22,185 bases of DNA from a virus. The stretch spans positions 1 through 22,185 of IMG/VR virus record IMGVR_UViG_3300009443_000037, one strand, 5' to 3'. This document shows positions 2,622 to 12,628 of this stretch, in pieces; the first letter of the stretch is position 1, and every line of letters begins with the position of its first letter. Under the pieces are notes generated by a model, which was given only the letters and a program-made list of their open reading frames with translations, ran no database searches and was not told the DNA's origin. A program made the position numbers and the translations under genes.

Positions 2622-3296
2622 ATGGATTTTAAACAAATATCATTAGATTTGAAAGACCTAGACGATTCTCAGGGAATTGTTACTGCTTACGCTAACGCTT
2701 ACGATTTTAAAGATAGCGATGGTGATATTTCGGCAAGAGGTAGTTTTAATAAAACAGTATCAGAGAACTTTAAGAGGATTAGAGTTTTAAAGGATCACAA
2801 CCCTAGAGAAATGGTCGGTGTGCCTTTGAATATAGACCCTAATGACTCTTATGGATTGCTTACAACTACCAAGTTCAATATGAATAAGCCTTTAGGGAAG
2901 GATATGTTCACAGATGTTAAACTAATGCATGAATCTGGCTTAAACGCTGAGTTAAGTATTGGTTATCAAGTATTAGGTAGAGATAGTAAAAACAAATCAA
3001 TAATTAACGAGTATAAGTTAATGGAATACTCTTTTTTATCTAGTTGGGGTGCTAATGAATTAAGCACTGTACAAGGTATTAAGGGGATTAAATCTCATTA
3101 CGGAATAATGGAGTTGATAGAGAAATCTTATAACTTAGATTATTCAGACGATAGATTAAGACAAATAGAATCAATGCTAAAAGCACTTTCAGACAAAGAG
3201 CCGTCAGACACTGACACTTCTAATGATGAGCCGCTAACAGAAGAGCAAAAGAATATAAATATTATTAACGAATTTAGAAAAACACTAAGAAAATGA
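2622..3296 (+). CDS. Prohead protease (HK97 gp4 / U35-S78 family)
   Basis: A 224-residue protein of the HK97 prohead maturation protease family, which cleaves the scaffold/delta segment of the capsid protein inside the procapsid. The family pattern is visible: N-terminal strand with GIVTAYANAYDFKDSDGD, the catalytic His in LKDHN (H59), the catalytic Ser in ELSIGYQ (S112), and the following acidic block LMEYSFLS near residue 135. Residues from about 160 form a charged C-terminal extension. It sits immediately upstream of the capsid gene with a 4-base overlap (ATGA), the standard order. The ATG at 2622 follows an A/T-rich leader typical of Bacteroidetes. Confidence is high from motif and context together. 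Confidence 0.88.
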   Translation: MDFKQISLDLKDLDDSQGIVTAYANAYDFKDSDGDISARGSFNKTVSENFKRIRVLKDHNPREMVGVPLNIDPNDSYGLLTTTKFNMNKPLGKDMFTDVKLMHESGLNAELSIGYQVLGRDSKNKSIINEYKLMEYSFLSSWGANELSTVQGIKGIKSHYGIMELIEKSYNLDYSDDRLRQIESMLKALSDKEPSDTDTSNDEPLTEEQKNINIINEFRKTLRK

Positions 3297-4498
3297 GTTT
3301 AGATGCAGAATTAAAACAAATGAGTTCTGATTTAGAAGGTAAATCAAAAGAACAAATAAAAGAGGCTCTAGTAGAGTTCGGAGCAAAGAACCAAGAGGCT
3401 ATCCAAAAGTCTATTAACGATGCTGCTCAGGCATTTGAGGCTAAATTAAAATTAAGTCAAGACCATATCGACGCTTTAGATATTAAATTACAAGCTAAGA
3501 CAAAAGGAGAAACTGTTAAGACTACAGCGATGGAGCTTAAAGAACACTCTGTAGAGCTTAAAGCAATGTCTACTAAGAATAGCAATAAAGAGATTTCTGT
3601 AAAAGCTGATACAGTTAGGTCTACTATTAATGGAAATCAACAAGCTAGAGAGCTTGATTCTATTGGTCAATTGGCTACTAGAAAACTTACAATGTATGAC
3701 GCTTTTGTAAAGATTCCTGTTTCTGAGTCTAACAACAACGGGGTTATTAGATATTACGATTGGGATGAATCTACTATCAATAGAGCTGCTGCTATGGTTG
3801 CAGAAGGTGGTTCTTTTCCAGAGTCTACTGCTGCATGGGTAACAGAAACTATTTCATTAAAGAAAATTGGAGATACATTACCTGTGTCTGAAGAGTTTTT
3901 TGAAGATGAGGCTATGTTTGCTGCTGAGTTAGGGCAATTCCTTAACACAAACGTTAACTTAATCGTAGATGATCAAATTGCAAACGGTCCAGGAACAGGG
4001 AACAACCTAAAAGGGTTAATGAACTCTATCCCTACATATACGGCTTCTGCTAGTGGTATTCAAGACGCATCTATTTACGATTTATTCCCAAAAGTAAAAG
4101 AAGCTATAACAACTACAGGAGGTTCTAAGTATATGCCTAATATAGCTTTTATGAATATCGCAGACATCAACAAATATAAGTTGAAGAAAGATGCTAATAA
4201 CAACTATGTAATGCCTCCATTTGTATCAAGAGACGGAGAGGTTATTGATGGTGTAACTGTTATTGAATCTAATGTTATCACTGCTGATACAATGGCTTTA
4301 GGAGATAATAGATTTGGACGTATTTACGAAAAGCCAGGAGTAGTATTATCACAAGGTGAGATTAACGCACAGTTTACATCTGACATGACTACATTGAAAG
4401 CTAGACGTAGATTGTTATTCTTAATCAGAGGTGCTGACGCTCCAGGATGGAGAAAAGTTGACGGTATTGCTGCTGCATTAATAACTTTAGCGAGCTAA
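3293..4498 (+). CDS. Major capsid protein, HK97 fold
   Basis: A 401-residue HK97-family major capsid protein. Residues about 1-105 are Lys/Glu/Ala/Gln-rich and strongly helical, like the delta (internal scaffold) domain removed by the protease. The mature domain follows, with features common to the family: RKLTMYDAFVKIPVSESNN, AAMVAEGGSFPES, the dimer-like helix ELGQFLNTNVNLIVDDQI, and the C-terminal block with DGVTVIES, ALGDN and FGRIYEK. The start codon overlaps the end of the protease gene and a rho-independent terminator lies 150 bases downstream, after one small gene, consistent with a strongly expressed unit. The exact cleavage site cannot be read from sequence alone. Confidence 0.9.
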   Translation: MSLDAELKQMSSDLEGKSKEQIKEALVEFGAKNQEAIQKSINDAAQAFEAKLKLSQDHIDALDIKLQAKTKGETVKTTAMELKEHSVELKAMSTKNSNKEISVKADTVRSTINGNQQARELDSIGQLATRKLTMYDAFVKIPVSESNNNGVIRYYDWDESTINRAAAMVAEGGSFPESTAAWVTETISLKKIGDTLPVSEEFFEDEAMFAAELGQFLNTNVNLIVDDQIANGPGTGNNLKGLMNSIPTYTASASGIQDASIYDLFPKVKEAITTTGGSKYMPNIAFMNIADINKYKLKKDANNNYVMPPFVSRDGEVIDGVTVIESNVITADTMALGDNRFGRIYEKPGVVLSQGEINAQFTSDMTTLKARRRLLFLIRGADAPGWRKVDGIAAALITLAS

Positions 4499-4691: not shown

Positions 4692-5183
4692 ATGGCATAT
4701 ACGGATATAATATCACTAAACGACGCTAAAACCTATTTAAGGGTAGACGATACTTTAACAGAGGACGACCAATTTATAACTAGAACTATAAACGCTTCAT
4801 TTAGTTGGATCGAGAAGAGAACAAATCAAATAGTTTCAGCAAGAGAAAAAGAATATGTTTTAATTAATGGCTACACTAGAATATATGACAGCCCAATTAA
4901 CACAGACTTATCTACTTTAACTGATTACGAATTTACAAATAAGGGTTTGTATTATACGGTATGCGCCAACAGTTTAGACGTGGAAAATGAATTTACTTTA
5001 AATATTGGGGAGAGTTTCGCTGATAATGTAGATTTTGAACTTATCAACGTGGCTTATGAAATAATTGAGTACTATTATAACCAAGCTAAAAAGAAACAAG
5101 AGGTTAAAGGCATGACTGTTTCTGATTACCTTAGTGAAATGTCAAAAGAGTATATAAACATTAATAGACGCTTTATAATATGA
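4692..5183 (+). CDS. Head-tail connector protein (HK97 gp6-like)
   Basis: A 163-residue protein whose N-terminus (ISLNDAKTYLRVDDTLTEDD, then FITRTINASFSWIEKRT) is the typical start of the gp6-like DNA-packaging/connector family: a helix that begins LxxAKxYLRVD, an acidic turn and a second helix. These proteins form a ring under the portal. The C-terminal helix (INVAYEIIEYYYNQAKKK) also fits. It lies in the standard position after the capsid gene and overlaps the head-closure gene by 4 bases. It starts 12 bases after the terminator T run, so its transcript must come from read-through or an unseen promoter. Confidence 0.78.
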   Translation: MAYTDIISLNDAKTYLRVDDTLTEDDQFITRTINASFSWIEKRTNQIVSAREKEYVLINGYTRIYDSPINTDLSTLTDYEFTNKGLYYTVCANSLDVENEFTLNIGESFADNVDFELINVAYEIIEYYYNQAKKKQEVKGMTVSDYLSEMSKEYININRRFII

Positions 5184-5653
5184 GAGCTAGACAACTTAAC
5201 AGAAAAATAGAGATATGGCAAGCTAGAAGGGTTAAAGATGGTTCTGGTGGGTCTACAACCTACAATGAACTAATAACTTCGTCTTGGGCAGCCGTTAGAA
5301 CACACAAAGACACCCGTAGAGATACTGAGGTAGGTGTTAGTGATTATTCTGAAAAGTTGGATATTACGATGCGTTATAGAAACGATATACAATATAATTC
5401 TGTTAATCAGTTCTTAATGTATAGAGGGGTAAAATATACTTTTACTATGAGTCCAATGAATATGGATTTTAACGAGTCTTTTATTGTGCTAACAGCATCA
5501 AGAGAAAAAACTAAATCGGTTGAGGTATTAGAGCCTATAAATCCAGACGCTAACACTATATTTATTAATTACAAAAATAGAGTTATAGGGGATGGCGGTA
5601 CGTTTGAGGCTGATGATTGCGTGTTAACGTACATAGAAAACAATATAGCATGA
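5180..5653 (+). CDS. Head-closure / head-tail joining protein with C-terminal DGGTFEA module
   Basis: Residues about 1-112 match the phage head-tail joining family (HK97 gp7, SPP1 gp16-like): MRARQLNRKIEIWQ, then a WAAVRT strand, KLDITMRYRNDI and YRGVKYTF. Such proteins close the connector below gp6. The family is usually about 100-115 residues; here there are about 45 extra residues. They comprise a Pro/Asp linker (VLEPINPDAN) and a 26-residue C-terminal module (residues 131-156) containing RVIGDGGTFEADDCV and YIENNI. Almost the same module ends the protein at 12122-12628. The gene overlaps its neighbours on both sides by 4 bases. The core assignment is fairly sure; the module's function is unknown. 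Confidence 0.75.
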   Translation: MRARQLNRKIEIWQARRVKDGSGGSTTYNELITSSWAAVRTHKDTRRDTEVGVSDYSEKLDITMRYRNDIQYNSVNQFLMYRGVKYTFTMSPMNMDFNESFIVLTASREKTKSVEVLEPINPDANTIFINYKNRVIGDGGTFEADDCVLTYIENNIA

Positions 5654-6602: not shown

Positions 6603-7046
6603 ATGTCTTTCATTAAAGGAGATGCTATTATTTTGTACATATGGGATAATGTTTCAGCCTATAAGCCTGTTGCGTGCCTTACGTCAAATAGTTTAGCACA
6701 AACAAGAAACATTATTGAATCACAAACAAAGTGCAATCCTGGAGTTGTCATTAAGGATGCAGGTTCTTTAACTTATGAGATTACATTTGAGGGTAACTAC
6801 ATTGACACAACGTCAGCAGGAAGTACCGATACGGACAAGGTATCACATGACGCTTTAAAGATTCTTTTAGAAACAGGAGCGGCTGAGACTTGGAAAATGG
6901 ATACGGGATTAGCAGATACTACTGCTTATTACGGGACGGGTATTTTCTCTGACTTAACTTTAGATGCAGCAGCAGGAGATGAACTAGCTACTTTTAGCGG
7001 TACGTTATCAGGAAGCGGAGCAATCACAACTACAGACCCTAACTAA
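6603..7046 (+). CDS. Major tail tube protein
   Basis: A 147-residue protein with the build of the TP901-1-type major tail protein. It starts with a strand (IILYIWDN), then ACLTSNSLAQTRNIIESQTK, which matches the family's typical S-L-x-x-T-x-x-x-I-E-x-x-T-K block. ITFEGNYI follows, and the end has GDELATFSGTLSGSGAI. These proteins stack as hexamers to form the tail tube. It has its own short leader with a promoter-like box and lies just before the assembly chaperones, as expected. A diverged paralogue is encoded at 12122-12628. Confidence 0.8.
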   Translation: MSFIKGDAIILYIWDNVSAYKPVACLTSNSLAQTRNIIESQTKCNPGVVIKDAGSLTYEITFEGNYIDTTSAGSTDTDKVSHDALKILLETGAAETWKMDTGLADTTAYYGTGIFSDLTLDAAAGDELATFSGTLSGSGAITTTDPN

Positions 7047-7052
7047 TAATAT

Positions 7053-7421
7053 ATGAAGAGCATTAAATTAGTTATTGCAAAGAAAGAAATTGAGTTTCAT
7101 TTTGGGCTTGGTTTTTTGGGAGAGTTGCTAGATAGTTTGGATTTATCTATTGAGGAATTAATGGGAGGGTTACAAAAAAACCCTTTTAAACTATTGCCGA
7201 AGATAATGCACGGAGCAGCTACATACGCATCATTACGAAAGGATGAGGAATTAGGTTTATCATTATATCAGCTGACCGACCTTATAGATGAAGATGGAGG
7301 AATAGTATCTGAAAACGTAAGTAAGTTTTTAGAGGCTTTTACTAAGAGTATGAGTAAAGATGTTCCTAACGAACCAACAACAAAATCCAAGGGAAAGAAG
7401 AGAGCGGTTCTACAAAAATAA
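7053..7421 (+). CDS. Tail assembly chaperone, short form (gpG-like)
   Basis: A 122-residue protein between the tail tube and tape measure genes, the position of lambda G. It begins MKSIKLVIAKKEIEFHFG with a helical body (FLGELLDSLDLSIEELM; LYQLTDLIDEDGG) and a Lys-rich C-terminus. Such proteins coat the tape measure protein during tail assembly and do not remain in the virion. Near its 3' end is a GGGAAAG heptamer in the correct phase for a -1 frameshift, after which translation continues to 7753 to give a predicted 233-residue GT-type fusion. No sequence-level family motif was certain; the call rests on position, size and the frameshift. Confidence 0.72.
   Translation: MKSIKLVIAKKEIEFHFGLGFLGELLDSLDLSIEELMGGLQKNPFKLLPKIMHGAATYASLRKDEELGLSLYQLTDLIDEDGGIVSENVSKFLEAFTKSMSKDVPNEPTTKSKGKKRAVLQK
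7391..7397 (+). promoter_or_regulatory. Programmed -1 ribosomal frameshift site (GGGAAAG)
   Basis: In the frame of the upstream gene the bases read aaG GGA AAG, so G-GGA-AAG has the X-XXY-YYZ phase and equals the lambda G/GT slippery heptamer. The -1 frame has no stop from 7370 to 7753. A small hairpin (AGGAC 7431-7435 with GTCCT 7441-7445) lies 33 bases downstream; whether it stimulates the shift is unclear. Confidence 0.8.
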
Positions 7422-7753
7422 ATTGGTCTGAGGACGTTTTGTCCTTTTCTTTGGGAGAGTTGAATTGTCCGTCCTTAGAATATGTTTACGATATGACTTG
7501 GGCGGAATTTCGTATAAGACAATTTGCATACAGACGAATGGATAATTATTCATGGATTAAAGTAAGGGAAATTGCTTATCAAGCTCTAGTAGGATCGCAC
7601 GCAGACCCAAAAAGACTACCTAAATCTAAAGAAAAGTTTATGCCTTTAGATGATAGGAAACAAAAAGAACTAACAGAAAGGCAGTTAGAGGCTATGAGAA
7701 ACGCCCAAGCTGTTTATCTAAAAGAAATACAAAAAAGGAATGGCAAGCAATGA
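7397..7753 (+). CDS. Tail assembly chaperone, frameshift extension (T part of gpGT-like)
   Basis: This reading frame has no convincing start: the first possible initiator is TTG 7439, and no ATG precedes the conserved-looking part. It is in the -1 frame relative to the upstream chaperone gene and is most simply expressed as its extension after the slip at 7391-7397. The extension begins EESGSTKINWSEDVL, continues through MTWAEFRIRQFAYRRM and ends in a charged helix. Total fusion about 233 residues (115 + 118). In lambda the T part binds the tail tube protein while the G part coats the tape measure. The end overlaps the tape measure gene by 14 bases. Confidence 0.75.
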   Translation, partial: EESGSTKINWSEDVLSFSLGELNCPSLEYVYDMTWAEFRIRQFAYRRMDNYSWIKVREIAYQALVGSHADPKRLPKSKEKFMPLDDRKQKELTERQLEAMRNAQAVYLKEIQKRNGKQ

Positions 7754-9854
7754 GTTAAACGTAAAAATAGGTGCTGATATAGATAACCTAATCGTAGAAC
7801 TTAACAAGGCTAAAAAAGAGCTTGGTTCATTCTCTAATGATGTAGATTCTTTTAGTAAAAAACTACAAAGAACAGGCGAGAAAATGAAGTCTATAGGTAG
7901 TGCTATGTCTAAATACATAACATTACCTTTACTTGCTTTAGGTGGTGCTGCTTTAAAAACGGCAGGAGACTTTGAGAAATTAGAAACCTCTTTAAGAACT
8001 TCTTTTAACGGTAATGCAGAGGCGGCAAGAAAAGCCTTTAAAGTTATTACTGATTTTGCAGCAAAAACACCGTTCCAGGTTGAGCAGGTTGCAGATGCTT
8101 TTATAAAACTTAAAAACTTAGGATTAGACCCAAGCGAAAAAGCGTTGACTGCTTACGGTAATACTGCGTCTGCTATGGGTAAATCACTTAATCAAATGAT
8201 TGAGGCGGTTGCTGATGCGAGTACGGGAGAGTTTGAGCGTTTAAAAGAGTTTGGTATTCGTGCAAGTAAGCAAGGCGATCAGGTTTCGTTTACTTTTAAA
8301 GGCGTTACCAAAACAGTTAAAATGGAGTCAGCGGCTATTGAGGGGTACTTGATGAATATCGGTCAAACTGATTTCGCAGGTGGTATGGAGGCACAAAGTA
8401 AAACCTTTTTAGGGCGTTTATCTACCTTAAAAGATAGTGTTTCTTTATTACTTAAAGACTTTGGAGATATAATGATGCAGTATGTAAATCCTGTTATTGA
8501 TACTATATCTGATTTAGTTAGAAAATTCGGTGCATTATCACCACAAACAAAGAAAATAATAGTAGTAGTTACTGCTTTTGTGGCTGCTTTAGGTCCTTTA
8601 CTTATAGGGTTAGGGTTTTTATCTACAACTATACTACCTGCATTGATTGCAGGGTTTGGAGTGTTGTTGTCACCTATTACTTTGGTTGTTGCTGCTATCA
8701 TAGCTTTAGCGGCTGTTGTTTACAAGAACTTTGATAGTGTAATAAATAAAGTATCTGAGTTTTATAATTCTTTTGTAGACGTATATAACCAAAGCGTATT
8801 ATTAAGGGGTATTATAGCAAGCGTAGCAGCAACGTTTAAAATACTTTGGATTAACGCAAAGTTAGCCATGGACAACGCTTGGGCTGTAATAAAAGGATTT
8901 GGTAAAAACGTTGTAGAGTTGTTTAGCAATATAGTAACTATTATAGCAGGTGCGTTAACCTTTGATTTAGATAAAATAAAAAAAGGTATTAGCGGTGTTA
9001 AGAGTGTAATATCTAAAGGTTTTTCTGAGATATCAGAAGAGATAAAAGGCAACATAACTAAAGCAGGAAACGATGTAGCGGTTGTGTTAGGCGAGGCTAT
9101 AGATTCAACTATAAGCGGACATTTAGAACACAAAACACCCGAACAAATAAAAGAAAGTTTGTCTAACATGGCAAACAACGTAGGAGAGTTTGCTAAAGGA
9201 ATAGGTGAAAAAATAGCCAATTCTTTAGGGTTAGGATTTTCGGGAGGTGAGGAAAGCGGCGGAGATACAAGTATAGGTCTTAGTAATGTTGTTTCTACAG
9301 AATCAGATAAAGTTGTAGAAGAGTTAAGTAATCTTAACAACCAAGCGAACGACATAATTAGCAACGGAATAGCAGGAACATTTGATGGGTTAGTAGACGC
9401 AATAGGAGGTTCTTTATCTAATGGTGGTAATGTTTTAAAGTCAACAGGAGCTGTTTTATTAAGCTCTTTAGGTAGTATTGTTTCTCAATTAGGTAGAATG
9501 GCAATAGGTATAGGTATAGGTATAAAGGCAATTAAAGCGTCTTTGTCAACTCTTAATCCATTAGCCGCTATCGGTGCGGGTGTTGCTTTATTAGCGTTAG
9601 GTTCTGCTTTCTCTGCGGGTGCTAAAAAACTAGGTTCTTCTGGAGGTGGAGGAGGTTCTGATGTAAGTATTCCTGCAAGTTCGGGTAGTACTGGTCAATC
9701 TTCGTTTAGTGGAAGTAGCCAATCATCATTTAGCGGTAACTCTAATAGTTTACAAAACGTTGTTTTTGAGATTCAAGGGACAAAGTTAGTAGGTGTATTG
9801 AGTAATACATTAAATAGAAATAGAAGTTTAAACGGTACTTTATCAATTAACTAG
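7740..9854 (+). CDS. Tape measure protein
   Basis: A 704-residue tail length ruler. The N-terminal half has the phage tape-measure pattern: a coiled-coil start (LNKAKKELGSFSNDVDSFSK), LETSLRTSFNGNAEAARKAF, TPFQVEQVADAFIKLKNLG and STGEFERLKEFGIRASKQGD. Residues about 272-328 form two to three hydrophobic segments, and residues 330-600 are helical. The tail of the protein is Gly/Ser-rich with a tandem 8-residue repeat (QSSFSGSS, QSSFSGNS; bases 9696-9743) and ends with VVFEIQGTKLVGVLSNTLNR, a terminus I associate with Bacteroidetes phage tape measures. It starts 14 bases inside the chaperone frame. At about 0.15 nm per residue, a tail of roughly 100 nm is expected (inference from the general rule). 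Confidence 0.9.
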   Translation: MASNELNVKIGADIDNLIVELNKAKKELGSFSNDVDSFSKKLQRTGEKMKSIGSAMSKYITLPLLALGGAALKTAGDFEKLETSLRTSFNGNAEAARKAFKVITDFAAKTPFQVEQVADAFIKLKNLGLDPSEKALTAYGNTASAMGKSLNQMIEAVADASTGEFERLKEFGIRASKQGDQVSFTFKGVTKTVKMESAAIEGYLMNIGQTDFAGGMEAQSKTFLGRLSTLKDSVSLLLKDFGDIMMQYVNPVIDTISDLVRKFGALSPQTKKIIVVVTAFVAALGPLLIGLGFLSTTILPALIAGFGVLLSPITLVVAAIIALAAVVYKNFDSVINKVSEFYNSFVDVYNQSVLLRGIIASVAATFKILWINAKLAMDNAWAVIKGFGKNVVELFSNIVTIIAGALTFDLDKIKKGISGVKSVISKGFSEISEEIKGNITKAGNDVAVVLGEAIDSTISGHLEHKTPEQIKESLSNMANNVGEFAKGIGEKIANSLGLGFSGGEESGGDTSIGLSNVVSTESDKVVEELSNLNNQANDIISNGIAGTFDGLVDAIGGSLSNGGNVLKSTGAVLLSSLGSIVSQLGRMAIGIGIGIKAIKASLSTLNPLAAIGAGVALLALGSAFSAGAKKLGSSGGGGGSDVSIPASSGSTGQSSFSGSSQSSFSGNSNSLQNVVFEIQGTKLVGVLSNTLNRNRSLNGTLSIN

Positions 9855-12121: not shown

Positions 12122-12628
12122 ATGATAAACGGAACATTAAAGATATTATATATAAAACAATATGGCGAGTATTTGCCTATCGGTTGTTTAACGGATAATA
12201 GTTTTTCAGAAAGTGCCGAAATGTTAGACACAACTGTAAGAACAAATACAAACGGATGGACTAGCTCTATACCTGTTGGTCAATCTTACAATATTGATTT
12301 TAGCGGATTGGTAACTAACGATATTTCAAGCGACTCAATTATAACGTTTCAAGCGTTAAGGGACATAAAAAGACAAAGACAACTATTAGAATGGAGAGTT
12401 TCAGACGGTAATGGTAATGATGATTTTGGATCAGCATATATAAACAGCTTAGGGGAAAGCTCTACAATAGATGAGTTTGTTTCTTTTAATGGTAGTTTAG
12501 TAGGACAAGGAGAGCCAACAAATACTTTTGACGAGTTATTTTATGGCTATAAAGACAGGGTTTTAGCTGATGGGGGTACTTTTGAAGCTGAACGATGTGT
12601 AAAAGAATATATAGAAAAAATAATATAA
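12122..12628 (+). CDS. Second tail-tube-like protein with C-terminal DGGTFEA module
   Basis: A 168-residue protein that appears to be a diverged paralogue of the tail tube protein at 6603-7046. Both open with a short strand and ILYI, then a Y-x-P-x-x-CLT-x-NS block (here LPIGCLTDNSFSESAEML), a central F-x-G strand, an AL helix with a Trp, and an F-x-G-x-L-x-G-x-G end (VSFNGSLVGQG). After an EPTN linker, residues 143-168 repeat the C-terminal module of the head-closure protein (YKDRVLADGGTFEA, CVKEYIE), 17 of 26 residues identical. Lying after the tail-tip gene, it may form a distal ring or fibre adaptor; this is inference. It is two bases upstream of the next gene. Confidence 0.6.
   Translation: MINGTLKILYIKQYGEYLPIGCLTDNSFSESAEMLDTTVRTNTNGWTSSIPVGQSYNIDFSGLVTNDISSDSIITFQALRDIKRQRQLLEWRVSDGNGNDDFGSAYINSLGESSTIDEFVSFNGSLVGQGEPTNTFDELFYGYKDRVLADGGTFEAERCVKEYIEKII

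Follow-up and report, generated by a model that had tools for sequence, protein, structure and literature searches.

A predicted lambda-type tail assembly chaperone frameshift at GGGAAAG in a phage with flavobacterial-phage relatives

Results

An overlapping ORF pair lies between the tail tube and tape measure genes

The window, a virus record analysed over its full length of 22,185 bases, carries a tailed-phage structural module that includes head-tail proteins. Its tail genes follow the order tail tube, G, T, tape measure, with G and T forming an overlapping pair of ORFs. The features that concern us are:

3293-4498: major capsid
6603-7046, plus strand: major tail (tube) protein, upstream of G (phrog_1407, E 3.3e-28; PF06199, E 4.3e-5)
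7053-7421, plus strand: ORF G, putative short tail assembly chaperone, 122 aa
7370-7421, plus strand: G/T overlap, from the opening of frame T at 7370 to the G stop codon at 7419-7421
7391-7397, plus strand: GGGAAAG, candidate slip heptamer, in phase with G and near its end
7397-7753, plus strand: predicted -1-frame extension encoded by T, 118 aa beyond the slip
7439-7441, plus strand: TTG, sole early start codon of frame T
7740-9854, plus strand: tape measure protein, downstream of T (phrog_1716, E 4.5e-47; PF20155, E 5.2e-12)

The tape measure protein has tblastn matches in 531 phage records. Past it and the next large protein, 12122-12628 encodes another protein resembling a tail tube, with 25% identity to the major tail protein at 6603-7046 (E 1e-9). 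The proteins of 5180-5653 and 12122-12628 share a 36-residue C-terminal tag (56% identity, E 3e-10) with the pattern YK(N/D)RV(I/L)xDGGTFEAxxCVxxYI, found here on structural-module proteins otherwise without notable likeness.

The heptamer is in phase with G and precedes an open -1 frame

Read in the frame of ORF G, the site GGGAAAG becomes AAG GGA AAG and fits X XXY YYZ. The preliminary description, made from the letters of the window, had reported this phase for 7391-7397 in the ORF at 7053-7421 and a -1 frame open from 7370 to 7753; both were correct, coordinates included. The G stop codon begins 28 nt past the first base of the heptamer. The predicted GT fusion, put at 233 residues in that description, computes to the same length (115 + 118 residues), with the junction ..KGK/EESGSTK, where the slash marks the slip. 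Likewise, T was said to lack a good start, and the only ATG, GTG or TTG ahead of its F..GE motif in the window is TTG 7439.

As bare letters the heptamer is no rarer than chance: the window holds two copies against a mean of 1.71 in 100 shuffles, 55 of which have at least two, and the other copy, at 12453, is out of phase with its own ORF. Counting letters therefore proves nothing, and comparison with relatives is the test.

Relatives keep the frame relation of G and T

A tblastn search of window T against named phages found two records each for Cellulophaga phage phi10:1, at 52% identity, and Flavobacterium phage 11b, at 48%. IMG/VR scans contributed six close loci and, with an alignment as query, the best 80 of 209; a further scan with phi10:1 T contributed the best 80 of 104, one of which (L089) was already in the set. 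Bacterial genomes yielded no relative when scanned with window T and one, L090 in a Lacinutrix MAG, when scanned with the alignment. A G-type ORF precedes T in 82 of 84 loci of the first set and 75 of 79 of the second; the six loci without it (L076, L080, L127, L140, L155, L156), in which T lies within ~110 bases of the locus start, were dropped. Identical G-T sequences were collapsed, and the G row of L089 was left out of one alignment. The resulting 108 distinct G-T loci share ancestry; grouping them at a T identity of 90% leaves 49 groups, and at 80% it leaves 30.

T lies in the -1 frame in 107 of the 108 loci, the exception being phi10:1 (+1/-2). All 108 contain an in-phase XXXYYYZ heptamer within the G/T overlap, although a slip at that of phi10:1 would not reach T. 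In 53/108, the stop codon bounding frame T on its upstream side reaches into the run or ends no more than 1 nt ahead of the site; an example of a stop abutting the site is L017, where TAA is followed directly by GGGAAAG.

According to the preliminary description, relatives that lack the heptamer while keeping both frames would refute the site. Such relatives are the majority (96/108), yet every one of them carries an A-run at the junction instead. Since both frames survived the changes of site, this refuting condition applies to the letter but not in spirit, and its wording was too strict.

GGGAAAG recurs in phase within one clade

GGGAAAG stands at the junction of 12 of the 108 distinct sequences. 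Its first base lies 28 nt before the G stop codon in these sequences (31 in L017). Nine of them, counted without the window and its near kin L014 and L015, are 45-65% identical to the window in G and 53-63% in T; the 45% value belongs to L020, whose G was taken from an internal ATG onward (72 aa). In the window's clade (support 93/90) 12 of 14 rows have GGGAAAG, and L023 and L090 have A-runs.

Between -90 and +130 the heptamer is the longest invariant stretch; choosing the 12 sequences by the heptamer accounts for part of this. The codon that supplies its first G is AAG, TCG or AGG, so that the amino acid varies and the G is constant; TCG makes up 4.2% of the Ser codons of these loci. Gly-Lys occurs within the last 16 residues of G at 13 loci and is encoded as G GGA AAG at 12 of them; at the thirteenth, L051, the pair closes G and follows an A-run. 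Codon usage gives the three synonymous choices a probability of 0.0035-0.023 per sequence, though coding in frame T may also constrain them. Some conservation near the site, such as AAAGCG downstream, may likewise come from two-frame coding. Judged from the loci compared here, the in-phase recurrence of GGGAAAG at the G/T overlap of relatives is beyond chance.

Downstream RNA structure

The preliminary description had also placed a hairpin downstream of the heptamer. It can be drawn at 7430-7446, starting 33 nt past the heptamer, but its arms are present in just 3 of the 12 GGGAAAG sequences, and we do not retain it. Folds of five window stretches stayed within the range of shuffled sequences (z -1.63 to +0.46), and single-stretch folds of L007, L008 and L009 gave no support for structure. 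Nor did the fold of the 12-sequence alignment (-4.95 kcal/mol), in which 2 of 20 pairs had changes on both sides. No conserved stem-loop a few bases downstream thus emerged from the window folds or the 12 GGGAAAG sequences, and we therefore class the site among plain heptamer slips, apart from those with a shown stimulatory RNA structure. The lambda site is not known to need a downstream structure.

Family and structure matches of G and T

G of the window matches phrog_183, 'tail chaperone protein', weakly (E 0.017); 3 of 48 G members match this family, with a best E of 0.0026. The best family of window T is phrog_16333, of unknown function (E 8.6e-6), as it is for 45 of 49 T members. Of 49 T members, 30 match phrog_441, 'tail assembly chaperone' (best E 1.1e-5); among the matches shown, the window's own T does not appear. 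Pfam returned implausible weak matches alone for G, and NCBIfam did likewise for T.

An AlphaFold2 model of G has a mean pLDDT of 83.9, with residues 104-122 under 50. This segment, which contains the candidate slip (residues 113-115), is probably a flexible linker. A Foldseek search of the G model against BFVD ranked four uncharacterised proteins first, each under E 0.001. The fifth match, the predicted viral protein A0A8S5M2L5 (E 1.8e-3, probability 1.00), is named tail assembly chaperone; further down, some matches bear this name and some are named tail tube. No BFVD match of the T model fell under E 0.001. One unnamed viral protein of 247 residues, A0A0K1LMC7, weakly matched the models of G (E 0.027) and T (E 0.10) alike, the pattern expected of a fused gpGT. 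Each of the two models also has one match in Cellulophaga phage phi18:2. Against solved structures the G model found nothing convincing by Foldseek (best E 2.6) or VIA-align (best Z 3.4, to 5ir0, an uncharacterised PICI-like-element protein).

A ribosomal slip probably joins G and T in the window

Gene order, frame relation, in-phase heptamers, absent T starts and the chaperone matches of relatives bear out the G/GT reading of the preliminary description. We conclude, with a probability of roughly 0.93, that the two ORFs encode tail assembly chaperones of the lambda G/GT type, connected through a -1 ribosomal slip on GGGAAAG. We assign the slip in the window to the ribosome, given that base runs in the G/T overlap reach at most 5.

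We infer the following course, in-cell slippage, its rate and the binding roles included. The majority of ribosomes would terminate at 7421 and release gpG (122 aa). A minority would slip by -1, two tRNAs moving from G GGA AAG to GGG AAA, and would continue to 7753 to make gpGT of 233 residues. By analogy with lambda, the G part would bind the tape measure protein (7740-9854) and the T part would recruit the tail tube protein (6603-7046).

From the relatives, we infer a flavobacterial-type host for the window. The Lacinutrix MAG that holds L090 has 62 Rfam tRNA matches; in this one MAG, ARAGORN called two tRNA-Lys genes, both UUU and none CUU, and left some of the Rfam matches uncalled. In E. 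coli, an extract of PMC5009743 links the sole tRNA-Lys to slipping at such a codon. The same MAG contains an array of 15 tRNA genes within 3.6 kb of one contig (L201, G002:C50:70400-74000), perhaps a phage or mobile-element tRNA cluster.

T could instead be a separate gene, started at TTG 7439 or re-initiated past the G stop. The in-frame TTG lies 17 nt past the G stop codon, and a GTG or TTG precedes the motif at 14 of the 108 loci, the window included. In phi10:1, T lies in another frame, has its own ATG ATG and is annotated from there; it is the one locus with an ATG ahead of the motif. The deposited T of Flavobacterium phage 11b also starts inside the frame. Against these points, 93 of the 108 distinct loci have no ATG, GTG or TTG at all before the F..GE motif. 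We rejected TTG 7439 as the true start: its first base is 6 nt ahead of the conserved F..GEL motif and it falls inside the conserved part of T, so that a protein begun there would lose the conserved K(I/V)(N/D)(W/F)..DV segment. A separate T would also leave the in-phase slippery heptamer at each locus unexplained, and we regard it as very improbable. Still less credible is a single gene split by a sequencing error or a recent indel. The gain or loss of one base would also divide an ORF, but four further IMG/VR contigs (L010-L013) carry the identical G-T stretch and relatives ~50% identical in G preserve the arrangement, which makes such an accident exceedingly unlikely.

Most relatives carry runs of nine to eleven A at the junction

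At the 96 loci without GGGAAAG, the junction run is A9 in 60, A10 in 33, A11 in 1, A8 in 1 (phi10:1) and A7 in 1 (L038). Thus 94 of the 96 have 9-11 A, a homopolymer of about nine or more, which the G/T overlap of the window does not have. L038 has at most 7 A; its in-phase A AAA AAG sits 28 nt ahead of the stop, the position that GGGAAAG takes elsewhere. A slippery heptamer requires 6-7 A. Counted by distinct junction context, runs of at least 9 occur in 48/50, versus 3/126 in-phase A AAA AA(A/G) contexts elsewhere in the ORFs of the same loci (Fisher p 6e-37, with related sequences treated as independent). The run of 9 is reached in several codon phases (AAA AAA AAA G; GTA AAA AAA AAG; AAA AAA AAA ATA), and 32 of the 50 A-run contexts have one form, AAA AAA AAA G. 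Elsewhere in 211 genes of the same loci, we counted 3 runs of at least 9 against 9.2 expected, and none of 100 synonymous shuffles gave a number as low.

Because run length is held across codon phases, slippage by RNA polymerase is suggested for the A-run relatives, besides or instead of ribosomal slippage. In extracts of the literature, a run of 9 A or T is described as slippage-prone in vivo, with bacterial RNA polymerase slipping efficiently (PMC5009743), and selection on runs becomes visible in many genomes at a length of nine (PMC1088944). We think that transcriptional slippage contributes in the A-run branch. A stronger version, which concerns these relatives and not the window, holds that their fusion arises mainly by RNA polymerase slippage on 9-11 A and that a ribosomal and a transcriptional site were swapped, in either direction. 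It would account for runs of this length in 94/96 loci, far above the in-phase control contexts, for a length that is constant in several codon phases, and for the scarcity of runs of at least 9 elsewhere in these phages. However, the same runs contain an in-phase A AAA AA(A/G), so ribosomes could slip there as well; the form shared by 32/50 contexts may reflect descent; the avoidance of long runs elsewhere shortens the control; and L038, with its classical A AAA AAG, has at most 7 A. On balance we put a mainly transcriptional fusion in these relatives at just short of even odds. For the window itself, the ribosomal slip on GGGAAAG remains our reading.

Phages phi10:1 (L008 2986-3008) and phi39:1 (L213 2080-2100) both have exactly 8 A at the G/T junction, with T in the +1/-2 frame. 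The G/T region of phi39:1 gave no match to window T in the tblastn search of named phages. The two accessions belong to one series (KC821618, KC821626), and the pattern either is genuine, a second arrangement, or stems from a miscounted homopolymer in the records; a literature search on this question found nothing.

Site type changes within the family

In a tree of 51 G+T rows, computed with the junction excluded, site type requires 3 changes, at least 2 of which are forced by well-supported branches. L023 (A9) adjoins L016 (GGGAAAG) with support of 98/98; L090 is a long branch of unsure placement. These placements suggest, tentatively, that recoding was exchanged within one chaperone family, with a ribosomal GGGAAAG site in the window's group versus RNA-polymerase slippage on A9-A11 in most relatives and the same G/GT products from both. 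We consider this exchange a serious possibility, if somewhat less than an even bet. If it is true, the G:GT ratio could be set at the RNA level as well as in translation.

Discussion

GGGAAAG at window 7391-7397 is identical to the slip heptamer of lambda. As in lambda gpG/gpGT, the pair precedes the tape measure gene, G and T overlap, the predicted shift is -1 and the slip lies near the end of G (extract of PMC5009743, which gives a lambda product ratio of 30:1). The two systems differ in that no lambda G or T match appeared in the searches made and that the window's relatives infect flavobacteria.

Xu, Hendrix and Duda reportedly described tail assembly chaperone frameshifts in other dsDNA tailed phages in 2004. 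The window shares with these the place of the genes and the direction of the shift, with unrelated sequences. The 28 nt between the first base of its heptamer and the stop are close to the average slip-site-to-stop distance of 26 nt in SEA-PHAGES (extract of PMC10885494). What sets it apart from other tailed phages is a flavobacterial-phage family with an apparent exchange between GGGAAAG and A-runs. Literature searches found no case of frameshifted tail genes in Bacteroidetes, Flavobacterium, Cellulophaga or Bacteroides phages, and an exchange of recoding sites in tail chaperones is not described in the extracts searched (PMC5009743, PMC3711429, PMC8008677, PMC10885494, PMC4256274, PMC1088944). 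Slippage in Thermus dnaX, IS elements and T6SS tssM occurs on 9 A or more, a length reached by 94/96 A-run relatives (extracts of PMC5009743, PMC4256274 and PMC1088944). The window differs from these transcriptional systems in that the longest run in its G/T overlap is 5.

On our reading, lambda-style tail chaperone frameshifting would extend to a clade of flavobacterial phages. The family also offers a natural experiment, the same two proteins being joined, as predicted, by GGGAAAG or by A-runs (mostly 9-11 A). With it one can study how the chaperone ratio is determined and whether slippage by ribosomes and slippage by RNA polymerase are interchangeable.

The nearest named phages have T (48% in 11b, 52% in phi10:1) and G (39% and 27%) homologous to those of the window and in the same place. 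They differ from it at the junction: 11b has 9 A with T in -1, and phi10:1 has 8 A with T in +1/-2, not GGGAAAG. In the 11b record, G and T appear as separate hypothetical genes, with an internal start for T, and the phi10:1 record has T as a hypothetical gene from its ATG and no CDS for G. Neither record lists a fused product; the GT protein is therefore missing there.

In Flavobacterium phage pippi8-1 (L214 2070-2120), the second ORF ahead of the tape measure homologue carries an in-phase A AAA AAG at its end, and the ORF after it lies in the -1 frame and is annotated from an internal start. This is possibly another unannotated tail chaperone frameshift.
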